From contig NC_092797.1 of the NCBI RefSeq assembly GCF_918797505.1, forward strand, positions 12,847,372 to 12,911,371: DNA of 64,000 nt. Direction: 5' to 3'. The DNA comes from Bemisia tabaci (lineage: Eukaryota > Arthropoda > Insecta > Hemiptera > Aleyrodidae). The number at the start of each line of letters is the position of its first letter. Within the stretch, counting starts at the first letter, position 1. A program made the position numbers and the translations under genes. The notes below the pieces were generated by a model. The model was not told where the DNA came from, did not search any database, and worked only from the letters and a program-made list of their open reading frames with translations. This document shows, piece by piece, positions 2,785-63,940 of the stretch.

Positions 2785-3020
2785 GCACTGGGGAAAAAAA
2801 CATATTGGATCTAGAGTCCAGACCCTTGAAAACATTGACAAGAAAAACGACTCTTGATTCAAGCAGATTTAAGCTTAAATCAAAAGGAAATCCGCTCAAA
2901 TTAAGAGGTATGGTTCTTGATTCAAGCGTAAATCTGATTGAATCAAGAGTATATTTTCTTGTCGATGTTTTGAAGAGTCTGGACTCTAGATCCAATGTGT
3001 TTTTTTTTTTTTTTCCAGTG
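2785..3020. repeat. Palindromic MITE, family A copy 1
   Basis: Starts CACTGG plus an A-run plus ATTGGATCTAGAGTCCAGAC and ends with the complement, GTCTGGACTCTAGATCCAAT plus a T-run plus CCAGTG. The arms are about 100 bp each, so the element is nearly one long hairpin. Open frames across it on both strands encode mirror-like peptides and are artefacts of the palindrome. The 3-bp flanks TTG/TTG may be a target duplication, but other copies do not confirm a fixed length. Confidence 0.85.
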
Positions 3021-3365: not shown

Positions 3366-3368
3366 TTT

Positions 3369-3947
3369 TTGATTGAAGGAAATTGGCAACGTCTGGAGCA
3401 ACTTCTAATAGAGCAAAAACTTAGAATTGCAAGAGGGGAGAATAAATTAGATGTAGAACAAGATATAAGAAATAAATGGAGAGAAATCTGGATAAATGAG
3501 AAGGGTAACAAATGGATTAAAACCATATTGAAAAATCTCGATGACTGGATAGATCGCAGGCACGGCTATCCGGACTTCTATATTACCCAGTATATGTCAG
3601 GCCATGGGGCCTTTGGAACCTATTTAGAAAAAAGACACATAATAAATTCTCCCCTATGCAAATGTGGCGAGCTCGACACTCCCGATCACACGTTTTTTCT
3701 ATGTAAATTTAATATAGCCCCTAAGTTAGAATTAGAAAATAAGTTGAACTCTAAAATTAATGCAAATAATTTATTGGAATTAATGTTACAAAATAGAAAC
3801 AAGTTGGTTTTTGCAATCGCTAGCGATAGCAGTATTCGTCATGGGAACTTTAGCTTCTGGGATATGAAAATTTTAAGGTACAGTTCGTTTGCAGTATCTT
3901 CAGAATTGAAGGGGCTATGTAATTTTGTGTCAACATCTCTTTTTTAA
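3369..3947 (+). mobile_element. 5'-truncated non-LTR retrotransposon, C-terminal ORF2 remnant
   Basis: An open frame of 192 codons without an ATG start. The peptide contains YMSGHGAFGTYLEKR followed by SPLCKCGELDTPDHTFFLC. This is the GHG-x-F-x-x-YL motif plus a C-x-C-x7-H-x4-C zinc-knuckle-like motif that closes the ORF2 protein of several non-LTR clades (I, R1 and Loa-like). The endonuclease and reverse transcriptase domains are absent, as expected for a 5'-truncated copy. The frame is intact to its stop, so the insertion is probably not very old. The clade is uncertain. Confidence 0.7.
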
Positions 3948-9320: not shown

Positions 9321-9549
9321 ATGGGGAGAAAAAGGGTTCTCGGATCCGAAGCCAAGACTCTTAAAAAATTTGACTAGAACAAAATTTCTTGATTCAGTCG
9401 GATTTTTGCTCGACTCGATAGCCAAGCTTTTGATTTTAGCAGATTTCCTTTTGATTCAAGCAAAAATCCGATTAAATCAAGAGTTTTTTTTCTTGTCGAA
9501 GTATTCAAGATTTTGGAGTCTGGACCGAAGAGACTTTTTTAAAACCACA
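9321..9549. repeat. Diverged family A element
   Basis: Retains the family A order (GACTCTTAAAAAATTTGA, CTTGATTCAGTCGG, GCAGATTTCCTTTTGATTCA, TTAAATCAAGAG, TCTTGTCGA, GGAGTCTGGAC) but is more divergent than the other copies and lacks clean CACTGG/CCAGTG ends. Its right end abuts the family B element at 9550, so B may have inserted in or beside it. Confidence 0.55.
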
Positions 9550-9885
9550 CACGGAGAAAAAAACCTCGTGCATGGGACCCGAAGTTTAGGTCTTATGGAT
9601 CTCTGAAGTTTTCGGATTGAGCATCTGAACACTTTAGGTCTAGATGTCGAGTTTCGGATCACACATCTGAAACTCCAGTTCTTACATCTGAAGTACTTCA
9701 GGTGTGAGAACCGAAGTTTTTCGGATGTGAAAACCGAAGTACTTCAGATGTAAGAACTGAAGTTTCAGATGTGTGATCCAAACCTCAGCAGCTGGACCTA
9801 AAGTGTTCAGATGCTCAATCTGAGAACTTCAGAGATCCATATGACCTAAACTTCGGGTCCCACGCACGAGGTTTTTTTCTCCGTG
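9550..9885. repeat. Long palindromic MITE, family B copy 1
   Basis: Ends are CACGGAGAAAAAAACCTCGT and its complement; the whole 336 bp folds into a long hairpin. Inside, motifs such as GAAGT, ACTTCAG and CAGATGTGAGAACCGAAG recur on both arms. Flanked by CA on both sides; copy 2 (59234-59565) is flanked by TA on both sides, so a 2-bp target duplication is possible. Confidence 0.8.
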
Positions 9886-10329
9886 CACAACAAGCTTCCC
9901 AAAGGAGAGGAGCTGTTTAAGATACCGCCCACAGAGCCTCGCCGCGATGAGAAACTCCCCAAGTGTTACCGGCGCAACTGCTACACAGCACCAAGACACT
10001 ATATCACAGGTGAAAACGTCCGGACATTTTCAGGTTGCCGGTGTCGGGCGGGGAGTTTTTTGCGATCGCGGGGTCGGCTCAATCAGTACGCGGCCATGAT
10101 TTCTCGGGTGTTCGCCGGCGAAAAAAAAACACTAGCGATCGGAAAGTTGGAAGATAAATGATTTTCAAGTGTTTCGAGTTGCCCCGCGATCGGCCCCGGG
10201 AACCCATTTTTTCTCCGAGTCGCTCCCAAGTTCCCAGCATCCGACCGCACATTCTTGGCGTGACACGCTATTTAGTTAGAGTATCGAGCCAGCGCCATTG
10301 ATTTATTCCGCCACCCCCGGCGTCGGGGT

Positions 10330-12155: not shown

Positions 12156-12406
12156 CACTGGAAAAAAAAAAACAAAAAAACAAACACACAATGGATCTAG
12201 AGTCCAGATTTTTAAAAACATCGACAGGAAAAAATACTCTTGATTCAATCAGATTTAAGCTTAAATCAAGAACCAAACCTCTCAATTTGAGCGGATTTCC
12301 TTTTGATTTAAGCTTAAATCTGATTGAATCAAGAGTCCTTTTTCTTGTCAATGTTTTCAGGAGTCTGGACTCAATAATAGATACAATGTATTTTTTTTTT
12401 CTAGTG
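12156..12406. repeat. Palindromic MITE, family A copy
   Basis: CACTGG plus an A-run with interspersed C, then AATGGATCTAGAGTCCAGA; the right end is CAATGTA, T10, CTAGTG. Arms pair over most of the length. The left A-run is expanded and the right terminal hexamer has one change. Confidence 0.85.
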
Positions 12407-16765: not shown

Positions 16766-16967
16766 TAATGTTGACTGTCCGTCTGGACCAGAGAACTCCC
16801 CGTACTCTCACTTCCAGAAATGTTGTAGGTCACTAGACAGGGGTTTAAGTCGGTGTTCACATGTTTTCTCTGCAAAATCTTTCATAGGAAATGACTCACA
16901 CTTTTGGAAGTTCGACGAACACCCCCTGAAGGAGATATTATTCATAAATATCGTGTAGTAGTTTTAA

Positions 16968-17411
16968 GGTGATTCGATGGACGCCATATTTTGTGTCAGA
17001 ACGGCATGCGATTTATCGCATCAATTGGTTCCATTTTTTCAGCTACTCGTCGTTTTTCTCCAATTTTGAGATCGCAATTCTGTTGTCAGGAGACTAAAGC
17101 ACTCATTTACCAATTTTAACAAAGAAATTCAATGTAATAAAGGCATGGTTTTTTTTAGAGAGAAAACATCGCATTCGAGTGCAGTTTCGATATCAGTATC
17201 GAATGCGATGTTTTCTCTCTAAAAAAAACACCACGCCTTTATTACGTTGAATTTCTTTGTTAAAATTGGTAAGTGAGTGCTTTAGTCTCCTGACAACAGA
17301 ATTGCGATCTCAAAATTGGAGAAAAATGACGAGTAGCTGAAAAAATGGAACCAATTGATGCGATATATCGCATGCCGTTCTGACACAAAATATGGCGTCC
17401 ATAGAATCACC
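16968..17411. repeat. TTAA-flanked palindromic MITE, family F copy 1
   Basis: A near-perfect hairpin of 444 bp. Ends are GGTGATTCGATGGACGCCAT and its complement, and TTAA flanks both sides (16964-16967 and 17412-17415). TTAA target duplications are characteristic of the piggyBac and Kolobok superfamilies. The centre contains TCGATATCAGTATCGAATGC. Second copy at 41646-42024. Confidence 0.85.
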
Positions 17412-17415
17412 TTAA

Positions 17416-18530
17416 CACAAATCAAATTAATAAAACTTGGATTACATGAATGGTGTAATTATTACTTTAGCCATTTCGCCAATGACAACTATTTACACCT
17501 AAATCTTTTTTATAATTGATAACAACTATACTCTGAGGACGTGTTAAAATTTATAAAATGACCTAGTTTGAGCGCGCTCACTTGCATCAATTTTTCTTGT
17601 AACGAGACGCGTTTTGCGAACCAGTGAGGATGGAGAGGTAACGACTCCAAAACTCGTCTACGGTTACGATAAAATTGGTGCAAGTACGCTCAAAATTTTA
17701 AATTTTATTCTTGTTAATGAGTTGAATTTTAGACTTTCAATTGTGTGATTTGTTCTGTGCGTAGAAGTTTGAAGAGAAAATATAGCGCATAAAGTATTAA
17801 CGTATTCCCTCTTTAGGGGTTCATCGGGTGAAGCAAAACTCAAGTTCGGTTCGGTTTGGTTTGACTTTTTCCGGCGTTCTTGTTCAGAATTTCTTTTAAG
17901 ACATTCCGCTGTAGGTCTATATCAATATTTCAATTTTGAATTTTTGTTGGCCAGTGTCCCTCTTCCTACAAGCGGTCTCTTTTTTCATAAGCCGATTAAA
18001 TTTAGGAAATCTTCGGTCTTTCGGAATAACTCAGGGACTTTACTACTCGGGAAGCACTGATAGCATGCCTCTTTCTTTTTCAGCAGCAAAAGTTCGCAAC
18101 GTCTTAATAGTGCTTGCTTTTCTGAGTGTCTTGGAAATGTTATGGAAAGTGCAAACACAGTCAACTTTTTAAACTCTGCGTATCAAGTCCCTCTTTCTGT
18201 TTCAATCATCATTTTTCTTGAGCTTCCTGTGAAACACAATCCACGCTGAACGATCAACTGTTTTATTTAAAATAGAGCGAATGTAGTCACATGAATTTGG
18301 TTCCTTTGCTATAGTTTTAATTGGTTTCTACGAAGAGTGAGTTTTATCGTCAGTATTCCTTCAGTATCGATGCGAACTATAGGTCACTCTTTGATCAGTT
18401 TCACCAGTTATAGGCTGTACTGGGAACCAATGTAAACAAATACTATGACGATACAGCTAAGGTGTGATTACAATTGTTCCTAATGTCCGAAATCTACAAC
18501 AAGTCCCAAGCAAATTCTGATGCTTGAAAG
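17416..18530. other. No gene recognised
   Basis: AT-rich unique sequence. A short inverted pair around ATTGGTGCAAGT and the earlier CTTGCATCAATTTTT (17580-17690) may be a decayed foldback. The frame at 17936-18172 has no recognisable features. Confidence 0.4.
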
Positions 18531-19173: not shown

Positions 19174-19770
19174 CACTGGGAAAAAAAACAGATTGGATCG
19201 AGAGTCCAGACTCTTGAAAACATTGACAAGAAAAAGGACTCTTGATTCAATCAGATAAGCTTAATCAGACAGGCTTAAATGGACGTATTTCTATCAAACA
19301 GAACTATGTGCAGGTGAGAAATATGGGGTGTGCTCTAGAAAGCTGAATAAGGAACATTGTAAAAGAGGGGGGCGTGATTCCTTGTGGAGAATTGGAAAAG
19401 CGGAATTTTACATTCTATCAAACAGACCTATGTGCTAACTGAATGCGGGACTCATGAGCCGCGGGCATGGCAAGAGAGCGTTGTTGACAGGGCTCATGAG
19501 TTAAAGCGCCCCGACGATGATCTCCGCTGACGTCACTGGCGCTTTATTATTCTTATTCACTCTTACGGCCTGAGAACTAACGAGCACACCCCATACTTCT
19601 CACCTCCACATAGGTCTGTTTGGTAGAAATACGTCCAAATCAAAAGGAAATCCGCTCAAATTAAGAGGCTTGGTTCTTGATTTAAGCTTAAATCTGATTA
19701 AATATTTTTTCTTGTCGATGTTTTTAAGAGTCTGGATTCTAGATCCAATGTGTTTTTTTTTCCCCCAGTG
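19174..19770. repeat. Family A MITE interrupted by a nested element
   Basis: The left part (19174-19280) and right part (19637-19770) together make a family A copy with CACTGG and CCAGTG ends. The break falls in the word CTTAAATCAAAAGG, intact in other copies such as 43753-43976, and is filled by the D element at 19281-19636. Confidence 0.85.
19281..19636. repeat. Foldback element family D, nested in family A
   Basis: 356 bp with inverted ends GGACGTATTTCTATCAAACA and TGTTTGGTAGAAATACGTCC. AAAT is duplicated at 19277-19280 and 19637-19640; uninterrupted family A copies carry it once, so this is a verified insertion with a 4-bp target duplication. The interior includes CATGAGCCGCGGGCATGGCA and GCTCATGAGTTAAAGCGCC. 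No coding capacity. Confidence 0.9.
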
Positions 19771-20278: not shown

Positions 20279-20534
20279 GCTGGGGGAAAAAAAAAACACA
20301 TTCGATCCAGAGTCCAGATTCTTGATAAGACAAACAAGACAAACTTGATAAGACATCGACAAGAAAAAATACTCTTGATTCAATCAGATTTTTGCTTAAA
20401 TCAAAAGGAAATCCGCTCAAATTAAGAGGCTTGGTTCTTGATTTAAGCTTAAATCTGATTGAATCAAGAGTATTTTTTCTTGTCGATGTTTTTAAGAGTC
20501 TGGACTCTAAATCCATTGTGTTTTTTTTCCAGTG
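20279..20534. repeat. Palindromic MITE, family A copy
   Basis: The left end is slightly altered (CGCTGGGGG plus an A-run) and the right end is a T-run plus CCAGTG. The left arm carries an extra partial repeat, GACAAACAAGACAAACTTGA, before ACATCGACAAG, a small local duplication. Confidence 0.85.
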
Positions 20535-23196: not shown

Positions 23197-23424
23197 ACTG
23201 GAAAAAAAAAACACATTGGATCTGGAGTCCAGACTCTTAAAAACATCGACAAAAAAAAGTACTCTCAATTTAATCAGAATCTAGCTTAAATCAAGAACGA
23301 AGCCTCTTAATTTAAGCGGATTTCGTTTTGATTCAAGCAAAAATCCAATTGAATCAAGAGTATTTTTTCTTGTCAATGTTTTCAAGAGTCTCGACTCTAG
23401 ATACAATGTGTTTTTTTTTCCAGT
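23197..23424. repeat. Palindromic MITE, family A copy
   Basis: ACTGG plus A9 then CACATTGGATCTGGAGTCCA; the right end is AATGTG, T9, CCAGT. Flanks show no clear duplication. Confidence 0.85.
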
Positions 23425-23530
23425 CCGAACTATAAAACCAAACAAATACCAATATATACCTAGCGCAACCAAACCACAATGCGAAAAAACTAGGAATTAC
23501 AAAATAAGCAAGCGTCGGACCTAACAGATA

Positions 23531-23635
23531 GAGTCTGATAGACTAAAAAAAGTATACCAAAGCGAGAGTCTGATAGACTAAAAAAAGTATACCAAAGCGA
23601 GAGTCTGATAGACTAAAAAAAGTATACCAAAGCGA
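23531..23635 (+). repeat. Tandem repeat, 35 bp x 3
   Basis: Three consecutive 35-bp units starting GAGTCTGATAGACTAAAAAA and ending ACCAAAGCGA. The units look identical, so the expansion is recent. Each contains the palindrome AGTCTGATAGACT. Confidence 0.9.
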
Positions 23636-29061: not shown

Positions 29062-29298
29062 ACTGGGAAAAAAACACATTGTATCTAGAGTCCAGACTCT
29101 TAAAAACATCGACAAGAAAATATACTCTTGATTCAATCAGATTTAAGCTTAAATCAATAACCAAGCCTCTCATCATGAGCGGATTTCCTTTTGATTTAAG
29201 CTTAAATCTTGTTGAATCATGAATTCTTTTTCTTGTCAATGTTTTCAAGAGTCTGAACTCTAGATCCAATGTGTTCCCCCCCCCCCCCCCCCCCAGTG
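29062..29298. repeat. Family A MITE with poly-C in place of poly-T
   Basis: A standard family A copy, except that the right-hand run before CCAGTG, which is T8 or longer in the other well-preserved copies, is C19 (29276-29294). The left A-run is normal (ACTGGGAAAAAAACACATTG). The two terminal runs therefore no longer pair. Confidence 0.85.
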
Positions 29299-29674: not shown

Positions 29675-29912
29675 CACTGAAAAAAACAACAAAAAAAACA
29701 TATTGGATCTAAAGTTCAGACTCTTGAAAACATTGACAAGAAAAAGGACTCTTGATTCAAGCATATTTAAGCTTTAATCAAAAGGAAATCCGCTCAAATT
29801 AAGAGGCTTGGTTCTTGATTTAAGCTTAAATCTGATTTAATCAAGAGTATTTTTTCTTGTCGATGTTTTTAAGAGTCTGGGCTCTGGATCCAATGTGTTT
29901 TTTTTTCCAGTG
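29675..29912. repeat. Palindromic MITE, family A copy
   Basis: CACTGA plus A-rich (with C) then TTGGATCTAAAGTTCAGACT; right end AATGTG, T-run, CCAGTG. AAA on both sides could be a 3-bp duplication. Immediately upstream (about 29530-29670) lies a decayed stretch resembling family C (TAATATAGCACTTGCTTTG, AAAACGAGCCAGAAATAATAG). Confidence 0.85.
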
Positions 29913-34200: not shown

Positions 34201-35045
34201 GCCGACTCATCACTAACTTGTTCCGTGAAGAATGGTGCTGAAATTAGGTCGATTGACTTGTTGGTTACGCCGCTGGCGTGAAGGAAAAAATGAAATACTA
34301 GTCTGAGGGGTTTTTAAAAGTCTTATCCGGATGGAGCTATTTTGAAATGTCGGGGTAGACGACTTTATCAACTGGTAGAAGTGTTTTGATTTGCACGACA
34401 AAATGTAATGTTTCATAAGGTTAGATGAGCTAAGTTTGTGATTTTTTTAAGAATCTTCCTGTATAATGGAAAATTGGAATTTAGTAGATTTTAAAATGAC
34501 AAAATGTATCTCTTTTGATGTCATGGGTTGGCATTTCTCATTTATACACATATGTATATTATACATCCTCTAGCCAGAGGCAGTACACTTAAGAGAATCA
34601 GCACTGCTATCTTCTTCATTGTGTAAAGCTAATTCCGCCTAAAAATGTTGTTATAACTTTTTTCTCACAAACAACATTGATAACAAGTGATCCACAACAT
34701 TGAGCAACATGTGATAACCATATTTTTCTCACTTTGAAAGGTACAGCCAAGTACAGTTAATACATCGCCGTATCACCTAAATAAGTGTGGTGTGTGAGAA
34801 CAATGTCAAAACTTTTAAGTCCCGATACCACTATTCGAGCTCTTAGGTGCGCGTTTTGCCTACCTTCTCAGTTGAAGGCGAATCATGTTCGCGCCGCAAA
34901 GCCGCACTAGGGACCCGAATAGATGTGATCTTTGTTTGCCTCGCACAGAACTGATACTTGGTACTTAAGTGTCTTTCAAATCAGTTCATTTTCTTGAGAT
35001 TTTTAGAGACCAAAAGAGGTTACAACAAGCGTGATAATTTGACAA
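34201..35045. other. No gene recognised, left flank of satellite
   Basis: AT-rich unique sequence ending at the first satellite unit. The minus-strand frame at 34213-34416 is unremarkable. Confidence 0.4.
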
Positions 35046-38000
35046 TACCAGTATCTCAAAATATTCAATGAAAAAGCATAAATTATACAATTAACTTTCG
35101 CGCCTGAAGTTTACCCAGTCTCCTGAACAGGTAGACAGGTAATTTTACAGACGAGGCAAGACTAGATGTTGCATATTGCAAAATGTACCAGTATCTCAAA
35201 ATATTCAATGAAAAAGCATAAATTATACAATTAACTTTCGCGCCTGAAGTTTACCCAGTCTCCTGAACAGGTAGACATGTAATTTTACGGACGAGGCAAG
35301 ACTAGATGTTGCATATTGCAAAATGTACCAGTATCTCAAAATATTCAATGAAAAAGCATAAATTATACAATTAACTTTCGCGCCTGAAGTTTACCCAGTC
35401 TCCTGAACAGGTAGACATGTAATTTTACGGACGAGGCAAGACTAGATGTTGCATATTGCAAAATGTACCAGTATCTCAAAATATTCAATGAAAAAGCATA
35501 AATTATACAATTAACTTTCGCGCCTGAAGTTTACCCAGTCTCCTGAACAGGTAGACATGTAATTTTACGGACGAGGCAAGACTAGATGTTGCATATTGCA
35601 AAATGTACCAGTATCTCAAAATATTCAATGAAAAAGCATAAATTATACAATTAACTTTCGCGCCTGAAGTTTACCCAGTCTCCTGAACAGGTAGACAGGT
35701 AATTTTACAGACGAGGCAAGACTAGATGTTGCATATTGCAAAATGTACCAGTATCTCAAAATATTCAATGAAAAAGCATAAATTATACAATTAACTTTCG
35801 CGCCTGAAGTTTACCCAGTCTCCTGAACAGGTAGACATGTAATTTTACGGACGAGGCAAGACTAGATGTTGCATATTGCAAAATGTACCAGTATCTCAAA
35901 ATATTCAATGAAAAAGCATAAATTATACAATTAACTTTCGCGCCTGAAGTTTACCCAGTCTCCTGAACAGGTAGACATGTAATTTTACGGACGAGGCAAG
36001 ACTAGATGTTGCATATTGCAAAATGTACCAGTATCTCAAAATATTCAATGAAAAAGCATAAATTATACAATTAACTTTCGCGCCTGAAGTTTACCCAGTC
36101 TCCTGAACAGGTAGACATGTAATTTTACGGACGAGGCAAGACTAGATGTTGCATATTGCAAAATGTACCAGTATCTCAAAATATTCAATGAAAAAGCATA
36201 AATTATACAATTAACTTTCGCGCCTGAAGTTTACCCAGTCTCCTGAACAGGTAGACAGGTAATTTTACAGACGAGGCAAGACTAGATGTTGCATATTGCA
36301 AAATGTACCAGTATCTCAAAATATTCAATGAAAAAGCATAAATTATACAATTAACTTTCGCGCCTGAAGTTTACCCAGTCTCCTGAACAGGTAGACATGT
36401 AATTTTACGGACGAGGCAAGACTAGATGTTGCATATTGCAAAATGTACCAGTATCTCAAAATATTCAATGAAAAAGCATAAATTATACAATTAACTTTCG
36501 CGCCTGAAGTTTACCCAGTCTCCTGAACAGGTAGACATGTAATTTTACGGACGAGGCAAGACTAGATGTTGCATATTGCAAAATGTACCAGTATCTCAAA
36601 ATATTCAATGAAAAAGCATAAATTATACAATTAACTTTCGCGCCTGAAGTTTACCCAGTCTCCTGAACAGGTAGACAGGTAATTTTACAGACGAGGCAAG
36701 ACTAGATGTTGCATATTGCAAAATGTACCAGTATCTCAAAATATTCAATGAAAAAGCATAAATTATACAATTAACTTTCGCGCCTGAAGTTTACCCAGTC
36801 TCCTGAACAGGTAGACATGTAATTTTACGGACGAGGCAAGACTAGATGTTGCATATTGCAAAATGTACCAGTATCTCAAAATATTCAATGAAAAAGCATA
36901 AATTATACAATTAACTTTCGCGCCTGAAGTTTACCCAGTCTCCTGAACAGGTAGACAGGTAATTTTACAGACGAGGCAAGACTAGATGTTGCATATTGCA
37001 AAATGTACCAGTATCTCAAAATATTCAATGAAAAAGCATAAATTATACAATTAACTTTCGCGCCTGAAGTTTACCCAGTCTCCTGAACAGGTAGACATGT
37101 AATTTTACGGACGAGGCAAGACTAGATGTTGCATATTGCAAAATGTACCAGTATCTCAAAATATTCAATGAAAAAGCATAAATTATACAATTAACTTTCG
37201 CGCCTGAAGTTTACCCAGTCTCCTGAACAGGTAGACATGTAATTTTACGGACGAGGCAAGACTAGATGTTGCATATTGCAAAATGTACCAGTATCTCAAA
37301 ATATTCAATGAAAAAGCATAAATTATACAATTAACTTTCGCGCCTGAAGTTTACCCAGTCTCCTGAACAGGTAGACATGTAATTTTACGGACGAGGCAAG
37401 ACTAGATGTTGCATATTGCAAAATGTACCAGTATCTCAAAATATTCAATGAAAAAGCATAAATTATACAATTAACTTTCGCGCCTGAAGTTTACCCAGTC
37501 TCCTGAACAGGTAGACAGGTAATTTTACAGACGAGGCAAGACTAGATGTTGCATATTGCAAAATGTACCAGTATCTCAAAATATTCAATGAAAAAGCATA
37601 AATTATACAATTAACTTTCGCGCCTGAAGTTTACCCAGTCTCCTGAACAGGTAGACATGTAATTTTACGGACGAGGCAAGACTAGATGTTGCATATTGCA
37701 AAATGTACCAGTATCTCAAAATATTCAATGAAAAAGCATAAATTATACAATTAACTTTCGCGCCTGAAGTTTACCCAGTCTCCTGAACAGGTAGACATGT
37801 AATTTTACGGACGAGGCAAGACTAGATGTTGCATATTGCAAAATGTACCAGTATCTCAAAATATTCAATGAAAAAGCATAAATTATACAATTAACTTTCG
37901 CGCCTGAAGTTTACCCAGTCTCCTGAACAGGTAGACAGGTAATTTTACAGACGAGGCAAGACTAGATGTTGCATATTGCAAAATGTACCAGTATCTCAAA

Positions 38001-40365
38001 ATATTCAATGAAAAAGCATAAATTATACAATTAACTTTCGCGCCTGAAGTTTACCCAGTCTCCTGAACAGGTAGACATGTAATTTTACGGACGAGGCAAG
38101 ACTAGATGTTGCATATTGCAAAATGTACCAGTATCTCAAAATATTCAATGAAAAAGCATAAATTATACAATTAACTTTCGCGCCTGAAGTTTACCCAGTC
38201 TCCTGAACAGGTAGACATGTAATTTTACGGACGAGGCAAGACTAGATGTTGCATATTGCAAAATGTACCAGTATCTCAAAATATTCAATGAAAAAGCATA
38301 AATTATACAATTAACTTTCGCGCCTGAAGTTTACCCAGTCTCCTGAACAGGTAGACATGTAATTTTACGGACGAGGCAAGACTAGATGTTGCATATTGCA
38401 AAATGTACCAGTATCTCAAAATATTCAATGAAAAAGCATAAATTATACAATTAACTTTCGCGCCTGAAGTTTACCCAGTCTCCTGAACAGGTAGACAGGT
38501 AATTTTACAGACGAGGCAAGACTAGATGTTGCATATTGCAAAATGTACCAGTATCTCAAAATATTCAATGAAAAAGCATAAATTATACAATTAACTTTCG
38601 CGCCTGAAGTTTACCCAGTCTCCTGAACAGGTAGACATGTAATTTTACGGACGAGGCAAGACTAGATGTTGCATATTGCAAAATGTACCAGTATCTCAAA
38701 ATATTCAATGAAAAAGCATAAATTATACAATTAACTTTCGCGCCTGAAGTTTACCCAGTCTCCTGAACAGGTAGACATGTAATTTTACGGACGAGGCAAG
38801 ACTAGATGTTGCATATTGCAAAATGTACCAGTATCTCAAAATATTCAATGAAAAAGCATAAATTATACAATTAACTTTCGCGCCTGAAGTTTACCCAGTC
38901 TCCTGAACAGGTAGACAGGTAATTTTACAGACGAGGCAAGACTAGATGTTGCATATTGCAAAATGTACCAGTATCTCAAAATATTCAATGAAAAAGCATA
39001 AATTATACAATTAACTTTCGCGCCTGAAGTTTACCCAGTCTCCTGAACAGGTAGACATGTAATTTTACGGACGAGGCAAGACTAGATGTTGCATATTGCA
39101 AAATGTACCAGTATCTCAAAATATTCAATGAAAAAGCATAAATTATACAATTAACTTTCGCGCCTGAAGTTTACCCAGTCTCCTGAACAGGTAGACAGGT
39201 AATTTTACAGACGAGGCAAGACTAGATGTTGCATATTGCAAAATGTACCAGTATCTCAAAATATTCAATGAAAAAGCATAAATTATACAATTAACTTTCG
39301 CGCCTGAAGTTTACCCAGTCTCCTGAACAGGTAGACATGTAATTTTACGGACGAGGCAAGACTAGATGTTGCATATTGCAAAATGTACCAGTATCTCAAA
39401 ATATTCAATGAAAAAGCATAAATTATACAATTAACTTTCGCGCCTGAAGTTTACCCAGTCTCCTGAACAGGTAGACATGTAATTTTACGGACGAGGCAAG
39501 ACTAGATGTTGCATATTGCAAAATGTACCAGTATCTCAAAATATTCAATGAAAAAGCATAAATTATACAATTAACTTTCGCGCCTGAAGTTTACCCAGTC
39601 TCCTGAACAGGTAGACATGTAATTTTACGGACGAGGCAAGACTAGATGTTGCATATTGCAAAATGTACCAGTATCTCAAAATATTCAATGAAAAAGCATA
39701 AATTATACAATTAACTTTCGCGCCTGAAGTTTACCCAGTCTCCTGAACAGGTAGACAGGTAATTTTACAGACGAGGCAAGACTAGATGTTGCATATTGCA
39801 AAATGTACCAGTATCTCAAAATATTCAATGAAAAAGCATAAATTATACAATTAACTTTCGCGCCTGAAGTTTACCCAGTCTCCTGAACAGGTAGACATGT
39901 AATTTTACGGACGAGGCAAGACTAGATGTTGCATATTGCAAAATGTACCAGTATCTCAAAATATTCAATGAAAAAGCATAAATTATACAATTAACTTTCG
40001 CGCCTGAAGTTTACCCAGTCTCCTGAACAGGTAGACATGTAATTTTACGGACGAGGCAAGACTAGATGTTGCATATTGCAAAATGTACCAGTATCTCAAA
40101 ATATTCAATGAAAAAGCATAAATTATACAATTAACTTTCGCGCCTGAAGTTTACCCAGTCTCCTGAACAGGTAGACAGGTAATTTTACAGACGAGGCAAG
40201 ACTAGATGTTGCATATTGCAAAATGTACCAGTATCTCAAAATATTCAATGAAAAAGCATAAATTATACAATTAACTTTCGCGCCTGAAGTTTACCCAGTC
40301 TCCTGAACAGGTAGACATGTAATTTTACGGACGAGGCAAGACTAGATGTTGCATATTGCAAAATG
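35046..40365 (+). repeat. Satellite array, 140 bp x 38 with 16-unit higher-order repeat
   Basis: Exactly 38 consecutive 140-bp units, each starting TACCAGTATCTCAAAATATT and ending TTGCATATTGCAAAATG. By eye the units are identical except at two linked sites. Type a has GTAGACAGG with TTTTACAG; type b has GTAGACATG with TTTTACGG. Type a occupies units 1, 5, 9, 12, 14, 18, 21, 25, 28, 30, 34 and 37. From about unit 3 onward the order repeats every 16 units (2,240 bp). No coding frame spans the array. The unit is close to nucleosome length and each contains a TTGCATATTGCAA near-palindrome. Confidence 0.97.
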
Positions 40366-41424
40366 TAGTCGAAATCCAAGCCGAGACGAGGCCCGGCGGG
40401 TGGCGGTGACACTGGCTCGGGGCAAAGGGAAAGAGAAAGAAACTCGTGAATAAAGAAAGGGCGGAATCTGGGATTCCGGAGGTGTCTGTTGCATGGTGGT
40501 AGCACTGAGCGATAAGGTGTGAATGCATCGCCGCGGCCCAGGATCCCAAGGCTCGGCCGGCATACAAAGCATCCGTCCCGGGAACCTATTTTCCTCGTCA
40601 TGCTCCCAACGCTGTTGCATTACCGTTAGCCCGGAAATTGAAGCATGCGAGATCGAGAGTTCAAAAATTTACTTTTGTCTGAGATTGAAGTAATGTTAAT
40701 ACTGAAAGTACTTTTCAAGCCATAGCCTTTTAAAGTAAAAGTCTGCCGAAAATAACCGTTTACCACGAATAATCACTACAATTTGAGAATCGGGAAGGAA
40801 TCTTAGTAGGGAAGGTTTGCCCCAAATCGGGGAGCTGAATTCTTTGATTTCCTCCTTCTTTGATTCTAAATCTTAGGGTCAGTTGGGCCAAAATTCAAGT
40901 TCGATATTTGTCATACCTACCTACTCTTTTGAAGCGGGGTGCCGCAAAACTTCGGCATTTGAATTGATTGTTTCAGTGTATAAATTCGATTTGGTCATCG
41001 TAAATTTTCATGGATCTTGAAAAGCTGAATCAAAAGGTTTTGTACCTATACAATATATTTCAAAAAAATTAATTCGGCTGTTTTCGAACCAGAAGAATTC
41101 AATCCCGAAAACACTGTCCGCTGACACATTTTATTCTTAGCAATCTCACTCAAGAATCATGTGTCATTCTAGCCCTATAGCAGAAATGTCTACCATGGTA
41201 TCTGTGAATTTAGCATTTTTTGGCATATACGGCAACATCAAATGCAGAATCGCAACGAGACAGTTTTTCACTGGCGTCCTTTGATCTGCTATTCCTCCCA
41301 CAGGAATCTGGTCAATCCTTTGACCCTCTTTCTCACGTCTAGGGGTGTTATATGTCTGGAGCCGCTTTCAACTTCAAGTCGGTCGTAATTTTCACACTTA
41401 CGGCGAGCGCAGGGGTCCGAATCG
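40366..41424. other. No gene recognised, right flank of satellite
   Basis: 40370-40640 is moderately GC-rich with overlapping minus-strand frames in three phases, some starting inside the satellite; no domain is recognisable. The remainder is AT-rich unique sequence. Confidence 0.4.
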
Positions 41425-41641
41425 CTACAGCTTCCGATCGCTGCTGAATTGAACGTCACTTAGCAAAAGAGACTTATCTATATCGAGCGTTTGTTGAAAA
41501 CATCCAACCCTTTTGGCGGTGGATTCACCCCCAATTGAAAGTTTGTCGTTTGGAGGTTGAATTCCGGTCCAATCTGCTTTAGTCTTGGCCTTTACTAAAT
41601 GCCTCAACTTGGCGATTTTGTAAGTAGACTGGTTCTTACGC
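41425..41641 (-). CDS. Candidate exon remnant next to a TTAA MITE, low support
   Basis: Minus-strand frame of about 70 codons ending at a stop near 41425, containing STYKIAKLRHLVKAKTKADW and STAKRVGCFQQTLDIDKSLL. Composition is protein-like. The frame runs into the family F element at 41646. With the element and one TTAA removed, the upstream side would read GTTACTTTTAAG before the frame, which resembles a 3' splice site. No domain recognised. Confidence 0.2.
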
Positions 41642-41645
41642 TTAA

Positions 41646-42024
41646 GATGATTCGATGGACGCCATATCGCATCGATTGGTTCCATTTTTCAGCTACTCGT
41701 CATTTTATTCCAATTTTGAGATGGCAATTCTGTTGTCAGGAGATTAAATCACTCTTTTACCAATTTTAACAAAGAAATTCAACGTAATAAAGGCGTGGTT
41801 TTTTTAAAGAGAAAATATCGCATTCGAGTGCAGTATCGAAATCAGTATCGAATGTTGTCGTTAAATGTATGTTTTCTCTCTAAAAAAACCCAGCCTAGTG
41901 TCCTGACAACAGAATTGCGATCTCAAAATTGGAGAAAAATGACGAGTAGCTGAAAAAATGGAACCAATTGATGCGATACATCGCATGCCGTTCTGACACA
42001 AAATATGGCGTACATCGAATCACC
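41646..42024. repeat. TTAA-flanked palindromic MITE, family F copy 2
   Basis: 379 bp with the same arms as 16968-17411; TTAA on both sides (41642-41645 and 42025-42028). The left arm has lost about 25 bp after GACGCCATAT and the right arm lacks the segment between AAAAACC and CTGACAACAG, so this copy is a deletion derivative. Confidence 0.85.
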
Positions 42025-42182
42025 TTAAAAGTAACATGATGTATACATAAACAAAGAAATGTTAACTATATACATTCGATGATACAACATCTTTCAACCA
42101 GCAGCAACACCTACCATTTGCTCTGGCTGGTTTTGGACGAACGTGGTGAGAAACAAATGAAAATTAGTCTAAGAGACTCAAG

Positions 42183-43752: not shown

Positions 43753-43976
43753 CACTGGAAAAAAAACACATTGGATCTAGAGTCCAGACTCTTGAAAACA
43801 TTGACAAGAAAAGGACTCTTGATTCAATCAGATTTAAGCTTAAATCAAAAGGAAATTCGCTCAAATTAAGAGCTTAAATGATGATTTAAGCTTAAATCTG
43901 ATGAATCAAGAGTATTTTTTCTTGTCGATGTTTTTAAGAGTCTGGACTCTAGATCCAATGTGTTTTTTTTCCAGTG
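43753..43976. repeat. Palindromic MITE, family A copy
   Basis: CACTGG plus A8 then CACATTGGATCTAGAGTCCA, ending CCAGTG. The intact CTTAAATCAAAAGG word here is the empty-site reference for the D insertion at 19281. Confidence 0.88.
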
Positions 43977-59120: not shown

Positions 59121-59233
59121 ACCTCCTCTCCGCCAGGCGCTGGGGGGACTTGCATGTAGTGCGCGAGGGGTGTGGGGCAGGTCAGTGAGCATCATTTGTG
59201 TCTAGCTTGTTTGAAAAGGATCTTCTCTGTATA

Positions 59234-59565
59234 CACGGAGAAAAAAACTTCGTGTGTGTGAGACCCGAAATTTAGGTCCTGTGGATCTCTGAAGTTTTCG
59301 GATTGAGCATCTGAACACTTAAGGTCTAGCTGCCGAAGTTCAGGTCTGACATCTGAAACTTCAGTTCTTACATCTGCAGTATTTCAGATGTGAGAACCGA
59401 AGTTTTTCGGATGTGAAAACCGAAGTACTTCAGATGTAAGAACTGAAGTTTCAGATGTCAGACCTGAACTTCGGCAGCTTAAGTGTTCAGATGCTCAATC
59501 CGAAAACTTCAGCGATCCATATGACCTAAACTTCGGGTCCCACGCACGAAGTTTTTTTCTCCGTG
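59234..59565. repeat. Long palindromic MITE, family B copy 2
   Basis: 332 bp with the same ends as 9550-9885 (CACGGAGAAAAAAACTTCGT), and TA on both sides. The two copies are highly similar over their full length. It lies directly upstream of the terminal-exon pair and therefore probably within an intron of that gene. Confidence 0.82.
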
Positions 59566-59620
59566 TACATACTGGAGGATTCAAGGCTCATCCGCGTGAC
59601 TGTGGACTGTTGCGTTTCAG

Positions 59621-63704: not shown

Positions 63705-63940
63705 CATTGGTAAAAAAAAAAAAACACACACATTGGATCTGGAGTCTAGACTCTCAACAACATCGACAAGAAAAAATGCTCTTGATTCAATCGGATTTTT
63801 GCTGAAATCAAGAACCAAGCCTCTTAATTTGAGCGGATTTCCTTTTGATTTAAGCAAAAAACTGAATGAATCAAGAGTATTTTTTCTTTTCGATGTTTTA
63901 AGAGTCTGGACTCTAGATCCAATGTGTTTTTCTTCCAGTG
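63705..63940. repeat. Palindromic MITE, family A copy
   Basis: CATTGG plus an A-run then CACATTGGATCTGGAGTCTA; right end GACTCTAGATCCAATGTG, a short mixed T-run and CCAGTG. Arms pair throughout. Confidence 0.85.

Follow-up and report, generated by a model that had tools for sequence, protein, structure and literature searches.

What kind of repeat is the 140-bp tandem array found in the genome of the whitefly Bemisia tabaci, and by which steps did it reach its present length? An earlier note, made from the letters of the DNA, had read it as a satellite with a 16-unit higher-order repeat that was amplified very recently. We analysed the array within a window, by which we mean the whole stretch of 64,000 nucleotides under study (bases 12,847,372-12,911,371 of the 57.2-Mb contig NC_092797.1, part of assembly GCF_918797505.1, which has 151 contigs and 610 Mb in total). 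We consider it likely that the array is a recent low-copy satellite or large minisatellite, solitary and non-coding, which grew by the duplication of blocks of units.

TRF reported a single array at 35046-40367 with a period of 140, 38.0 copies, 99% matches and 0% indels, where a 39th unit begins with the last two bases of the span (TA, to 40367). Cutting the array at 140 bp yielded 38 units without indels, which confirmed the exact period, and the only deviations from the consensus were T>G at unit position 93 and G>A at unit position 104. The two substitutions are fully linked, as both or neither occur in each of the 38 units with no intermediates, and they define type b (the consensus; 26 of 38 units, mutually identical) and type a (93 G, 104 A; the remaining 12 of 38, units 1, 5, 9, 12, 14, 18, 21, 25, 28, 30, 34 and 37). 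Both the linked pair as the sole variation and the list of type-a units had been given exactly in the earlier note. There are no private substitutions in the 5,320 bp of the array. The unit is 64% A+T; among the printed peaks of its A/T dinucleotides the highest was at 17.5 bp, and a 10.0-bp period was not at the top. Sub-repeats within the 140-bp monomer were considered and rejected, the best internal lag matching 46 of 140 positions. Coordinates of the array, its blocks and its flanks are listed in Table 1.

Table 1. Position of the array, its units and blocks, and the adjoining flanks within the window
Feature	Coordinates	Strand	Basis
Left flank adjoining the array	34892..35045		154 bp; no other assembly match among the 40 of 179 candidates scored
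Tandem array (38 units, each exactly 140 bp)	35046..40365	+	TRF and cutting at 140 bp; three assembly pattern searches place units only here
Unit 1, type a (93 G, 104 A)	35046..35185	+	Unit cutting
Unit 2, type b (consensus)	35186..35325	+	Unit cutting
9-unit block, units 5-13, copied as units 14-22 (36866-38125)	35606..36865	+	Lag-9 exact match; units 5-13 = 14-22
16-unit block, one placement, units 7-22	35886..38125	+	Lag-16 exact match; units 7-22 = 23-38
16-unit block, second copy, units 23-38	38126..40365	+	Lag-16 exact match; units 7-22 = 23-38
Right flank	40366..41600		1,235 bp; besides the self-match, one stretch of about 230 bp elsewhere on the contig matches at 71% (2 of 2 candidates scored)

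The order of the two types, abbbabbbabbababbbabbabbbabbababbbabbab, provides information on how the array grew. At a lag of 16 units, 20 of 22 unit pairs agree, and the letters agree without exception for 2,838 bp (2,240 + 598 bp; 35290-38127 = 37530-40367), up to the right edge of the array. Lags 9 and 7 each gave an exact match over 1,528 bp. The array consists of a 16-unit block present twice and six other units, with no third copy of the block, whose start may slide within about 35290-35888. A lag run of at least 20 units at some lag was obtained in 7 of 20,000 shuffles of the labels. This null is generous because the type-a units sit just 2-4 units apart, which is itself improbable (frequency 0.000355 in 200,000 label shuffles), and when the a-to-a gaps were kept and their order was shuffled, a run as long as the observed one appeared in 613 of 20,000 shuffles. 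As the lag-16 run is strong against label shuffles and modest against gap-keeping shuffles, the particular 16-unit duplication step is moderately supported, while multi-unit block duplication in the array is well supported. The earlier term of a 16-unit higher-order repeat, in the sense of a reiterated multi-monomer block whose copies are more alike than the monomers inside it, says more than the map calls for: the lag-16 identity is there, but a single 16-unit block duplication, the last of nested duplications of 4, 9 and 16 units, suffices to produce it.

To reconstruct the growth of the array we ran a beam search in which exact tandem duplications were undone one after another, and the map was reduced to "ab" in seven steps (16, 9, 4, 3, 1, 1 and 2 units), a count that is an upper bound on the fewest steps. 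Label shuffles needed 10.6 duplications on average, with 1 of 150 needing as few as seven, and 43 of 150 gap-keeping shuffles needed seven or fewer. Since gap-keeping shuffles reach both the observed lag run and this number of steps at the frequencies given, the 16-unit event and the seven-step history are plausible rather than proven. We also simulated growth from "ab", retaining the runs with 9-15 type-a units, trimmed to 38 units, and discarding the others. Duplication of single units left a mean of 1.0 a/b boundary versus the 23 observed, and none of the 1,500 retained runs in each of two settings reached 23. Single-unit duplication alone cannot produce the interspersed order, and the earlier proposal, that multi-unit blocks were amplified in addition to the duplication of monomers, is supported. 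When blocks of up to 16 units were allowed, a lag run of at least 20 (lag at least 8) appeared in 9-10% of 1,500 retained runs per setting, and with blocks of up to 4 units in about 0.1%.

These results suggest a history that would start from one 140-bp single-copy stretch, duplicated once, with two substitutions then telling the copies apart. The two-type seed would have been enlarged through unequal exchange, either between sister chromatids or between homologues, or through an equivalent process such as synthesis-dependent strand annealing, in blocks of increasing size (2 to 4, 5, 6, 9, 13, 22 and 38 units, the final steps copying 4, 9 and 16 units). Because units pair in phase even when they are misaligned, such exchange would leave the 140-bp register intact. 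What we infer is the mechanism of exchange, the order of the events and their direction, and the absence of a particular function of the array. Block copying is an ordinary way for tandem repeats to arise, and unequal exchange or conversion in multi-unit blocks is among the processes named for minisatellite maps (in the part of PMC2897807 cited here) and likewise for satellites (in the corresponding part of PMC8122249). The 9-unit and 16-unit copies can both be placed at what was then the right end, and one-ended growth would fit, as would other placements. A bolder reading, which we regard as doubtful, is that of a newborn satellite at the one site where it arose, its nested duplications still legible and its growth possibly preferring the right end.

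Given the lack of private substitutions, the divergence since the last spread of the array is at most 5.6e-4 per site (95% bound). At a mutation rate of about 3e-9 per site per generation, this would place the last spread under about 190,000 generations ago, a value that is an upper bound only, and continuing exchange can also erase mutations and thereby reset it. The result agrees with the claim of a very recent amplification in that it bounds the age, without dating the event more closely.

We searched the 610-Mb assembly for the unit with three patterns, a check that the earlier note had proposed, allowing up to 3 mismatches over 37, 35 and 34 bases. The searches reported 38, 38 and 38 places, all within the array, with no places on the reverse strand and none in a reversed control in any of the three. 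A similarity search of the assembly with two units gave 17 matches in one candidate region, all at the array. Within the reach of these searches, which would miss more diverged relatives of the unit, the array appears to be solitary and not a member of a dispersed family, and the abundant family implied by the word satellite was not borne out. Elsewhere in the window, 12-base words shared with the unit (three words in all) occur at two places, which we took as chance. Two units were without a match in phage records, and one 31-base unit pattern was without an exact match in viral contigs. TRF (period at least 20) detected no other array of more than 4.7 copies in the rest of the window or in 100 kb outside it (10 x 10 kb, two of them adjoining the window); arrays of this kind are therefore not common, and a sample of this size permits no further conclusion.

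The flanks were searched as well. The 1,146 bp to the left of the array matched themselves and short dispersed repeats (40 of 179 candidates scored), the latter at 34388-34561, 34697-34754 and 34820-34891, ending 154 bp before the array. In the assembly we found neither a second full copy of either flank nor a second haplotype copy of the locus (left, 40 of 179 candidates scored; right, 2 of 2). This bears on the possibility that the assembly is in error, a shorter or longer real array having been wrongly resolved by an assembler that passed the 16-unit block twice. A duplicated graph path would also be expected to give a perfect lag-16 copy and just two copies of the block. We nevertheless consider such an artefact unlikely: no displaced or haplotig copy turned up within the scope of these searches, the window is without any N, the contig is 57.2 Mb long, and ordinary long reads can span 5.3 kb. 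Block growth does not depend on the 16-unit copy alone, since nested duplications of 9 and of 4 units fit inside the array as well.

Could the array instead be a functional locus, transcribed into a small or long non-coding RNA and kept homogeneous by selection? A homogeneous single-locus array in an animal genome would agree with this, and there is a precedent in a mosquito satellite that yields the piRNA tapiR1; a single-locus satellite of that kind would be marked by small RNAs derived from its unit and by conservation among species. We find the idea very improbable, as recent duplication alone accounts for the homogeneity and neither an RNA family nor an unusual fold was found. Rfam gave no match at gathering scores over the window and none up to E = 1 over 34600-41600, and ARAGORN (bacterial code) reported no tRNA. 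Neither strand of the unit folded better than the mean of its shuffles (z 0.41 and 0.74), 130 of 200 and 150 of 200 shuffles folding at least as well. Through nine copies of the type-b unit no open frame extended beyond 55 codons, and none of the 23 open reading frames of at least 120 aa in the window lies inside the array (eight of the 23 were given to Pfam, and none of these matched). Judged from open frames and Rfam, then, the array is apparently non-coding. The near-palindrome noted earlier, TTGCA-TAT-TGCAA, is present in the unit as one hairpin with 5-bp arms; it was rejected as a functional motif, because such hairpins are at least as numerous in 285 of 500 shuffled monomers and its occurrence does not exceed chance.

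That the array is carried inside a mobile element, such as a Helitron or a miniature transposon with an internal tandem repeat, is largely excluded: the neighbourhood is dense in palindromic elements, and short arrays inside Helitrons are described in the cited parts of PMC10218199 and PMC12692304, but no monomer match was found elsewhere in the assembly, the adjoining 154 bp to the left had no other match among the 40 of 179 candidates that were scored, the right-hand 1,235 bp had a single partial match (71%), the ends of the array are by eye not terminal inverted repeats, and the flanks, being without repeated borders, therefore give no sign of an element that carries it.

The rest of the window contains several repeats of other kinds. 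A palindromic element of ~220 bp, resembling a miniature transposon, is present in eight copies at or near full length (2786-3009, 12177-12400, 20289-20534, 23197-23424, 29062-29275, 29691-29912, 43753-43976 and 63712-63940), seven of which were listed as matching their own reverse complement, and in partial copies at 9342-9539, 19174-19264 and 19637-19770. Two fold-back (self-complementary) elements of ~340 bp, 88% alike (9549-9889 and 59232-59569), each overlap a degenerate 23-bp tandem repeat. There is a 460-bp near-perfect palindrome at 16959-17418, 94% identical to its own reverse complement, and a shorter relative of it at 41664-42033, about 1.3 kb to the right of the array. A 35-bp unit is repeated three times at 100% identity at 23530-23635. 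An open frame of 193 aa at 3366-3947 (+), which by eye resembles the tail of a LINE reverse transcriptase, had one protein match (an unnamed 124-aa protein, 57% identity over 38% of the query) and no Pfam match. At the level of the assembly, a search for COX1 gave 94 matches (96 of 186 candidates scored), one of them near-full on C151 (15,322 bp), apparently the mitochondrial genome; the other 93 are shorter pieces on other contigs, many with internal stops, as would be expected if they were mitochondrial DNA copied into the nucleus. The mitochondrial COX1 read well with the invertebrate mitochondrial code, and among the 120 hits listed of 7,734 none was more than 73% identical to the 200 residues of COX1 taken from C151.

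With growth by block duplication of a solitary, probably non-coding array as our preferred reading, we asked to which class of repeats it belongs. Minisatellites (VNTRs) vary in length and map from one individual to another, and their units are usually roughly 10-100 bp long; the present unit of 140 bp lies above this length. Classical satellite DNA is abundant, with long arrays that usually occur at several loci, and with 38 places in one array, 5.3 kb of 610 Mb, the present repeat falls outside this class. The array is a satellite in the low-copy sense of an extended definition, which takes in any tandem repeat that does not code, whatever its form or location (PMC12692304), its non-coding nature being judged from open frames and Rfam only. 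Low-copy-number satellites of Tribolium castaneum are described in PMC10218199 as A+T-rich, with preferred units of 140-180 bp, mostly on one or few chromosomes and mainly in euchromatin, and the length and composition of the present unit are alike. Some of those families form dimeric higher-order repeats. The Tribolium castaneum families were defined by clustering of reads, whereas here we deal with a single 5.3-kb array, and the most homogeneous of them shows 1.3% divergence versus zero within each type here (same part of PMC10218199). Short satellite arrays have been proposed as seeds of future satellites in a review (PMC12692304, in the part cited), and the present array is like them in being short and in having probably arisen from a tandem duplication and grown at one locus by non-reciprocal exchange; short arrays are there said to be often more heterogeneous, whereas this one is almost uniform.

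A readable map of repeat types at one locus is also known from human minisatellites with variant repeats, for example MSY1 (PMC2599865; for maps in general PMC2897807). According to these papers, such maps are altered when one unit or several are duplicated in tandem, which slippage, unequal exchange or conversion can bring about. In the copying of a several-monomer block as one unit, the array resembles the higher-order repeats of alpha satellite (PMC8122249), where divergence among the monomers of one block is typically greater and amplification and homogenisation act on the block, whereas here 2 of 140 sites distinguish the types and there are two copies of the block. The array works like low-copy satellites, seed arrays and a minisatellite with variant repeats. 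Our literature search found no paper on Bemisia tabaci satellite DNA with 140 bp, no whitefly satellitome paper as judged by title, no Bemisia genome paper on tandem repeats at chromosome level by title among the matches listed, and none naming Bemisia among the matches listed on short euchromatic satellite arrays.

The array is ordinary in kind and no general view is changed by it. It is a clear small case of a unit map that records block duplication, at a single locus and, as far as the assembly searches reached, without a family elsewhere. If the map is confirmed by reads, the step sizes and the direction of early array growth would be directly measurable by comparing individuals, and if the reading as a newborn satellite is true, the array would be a natural recorder of how satellites start.
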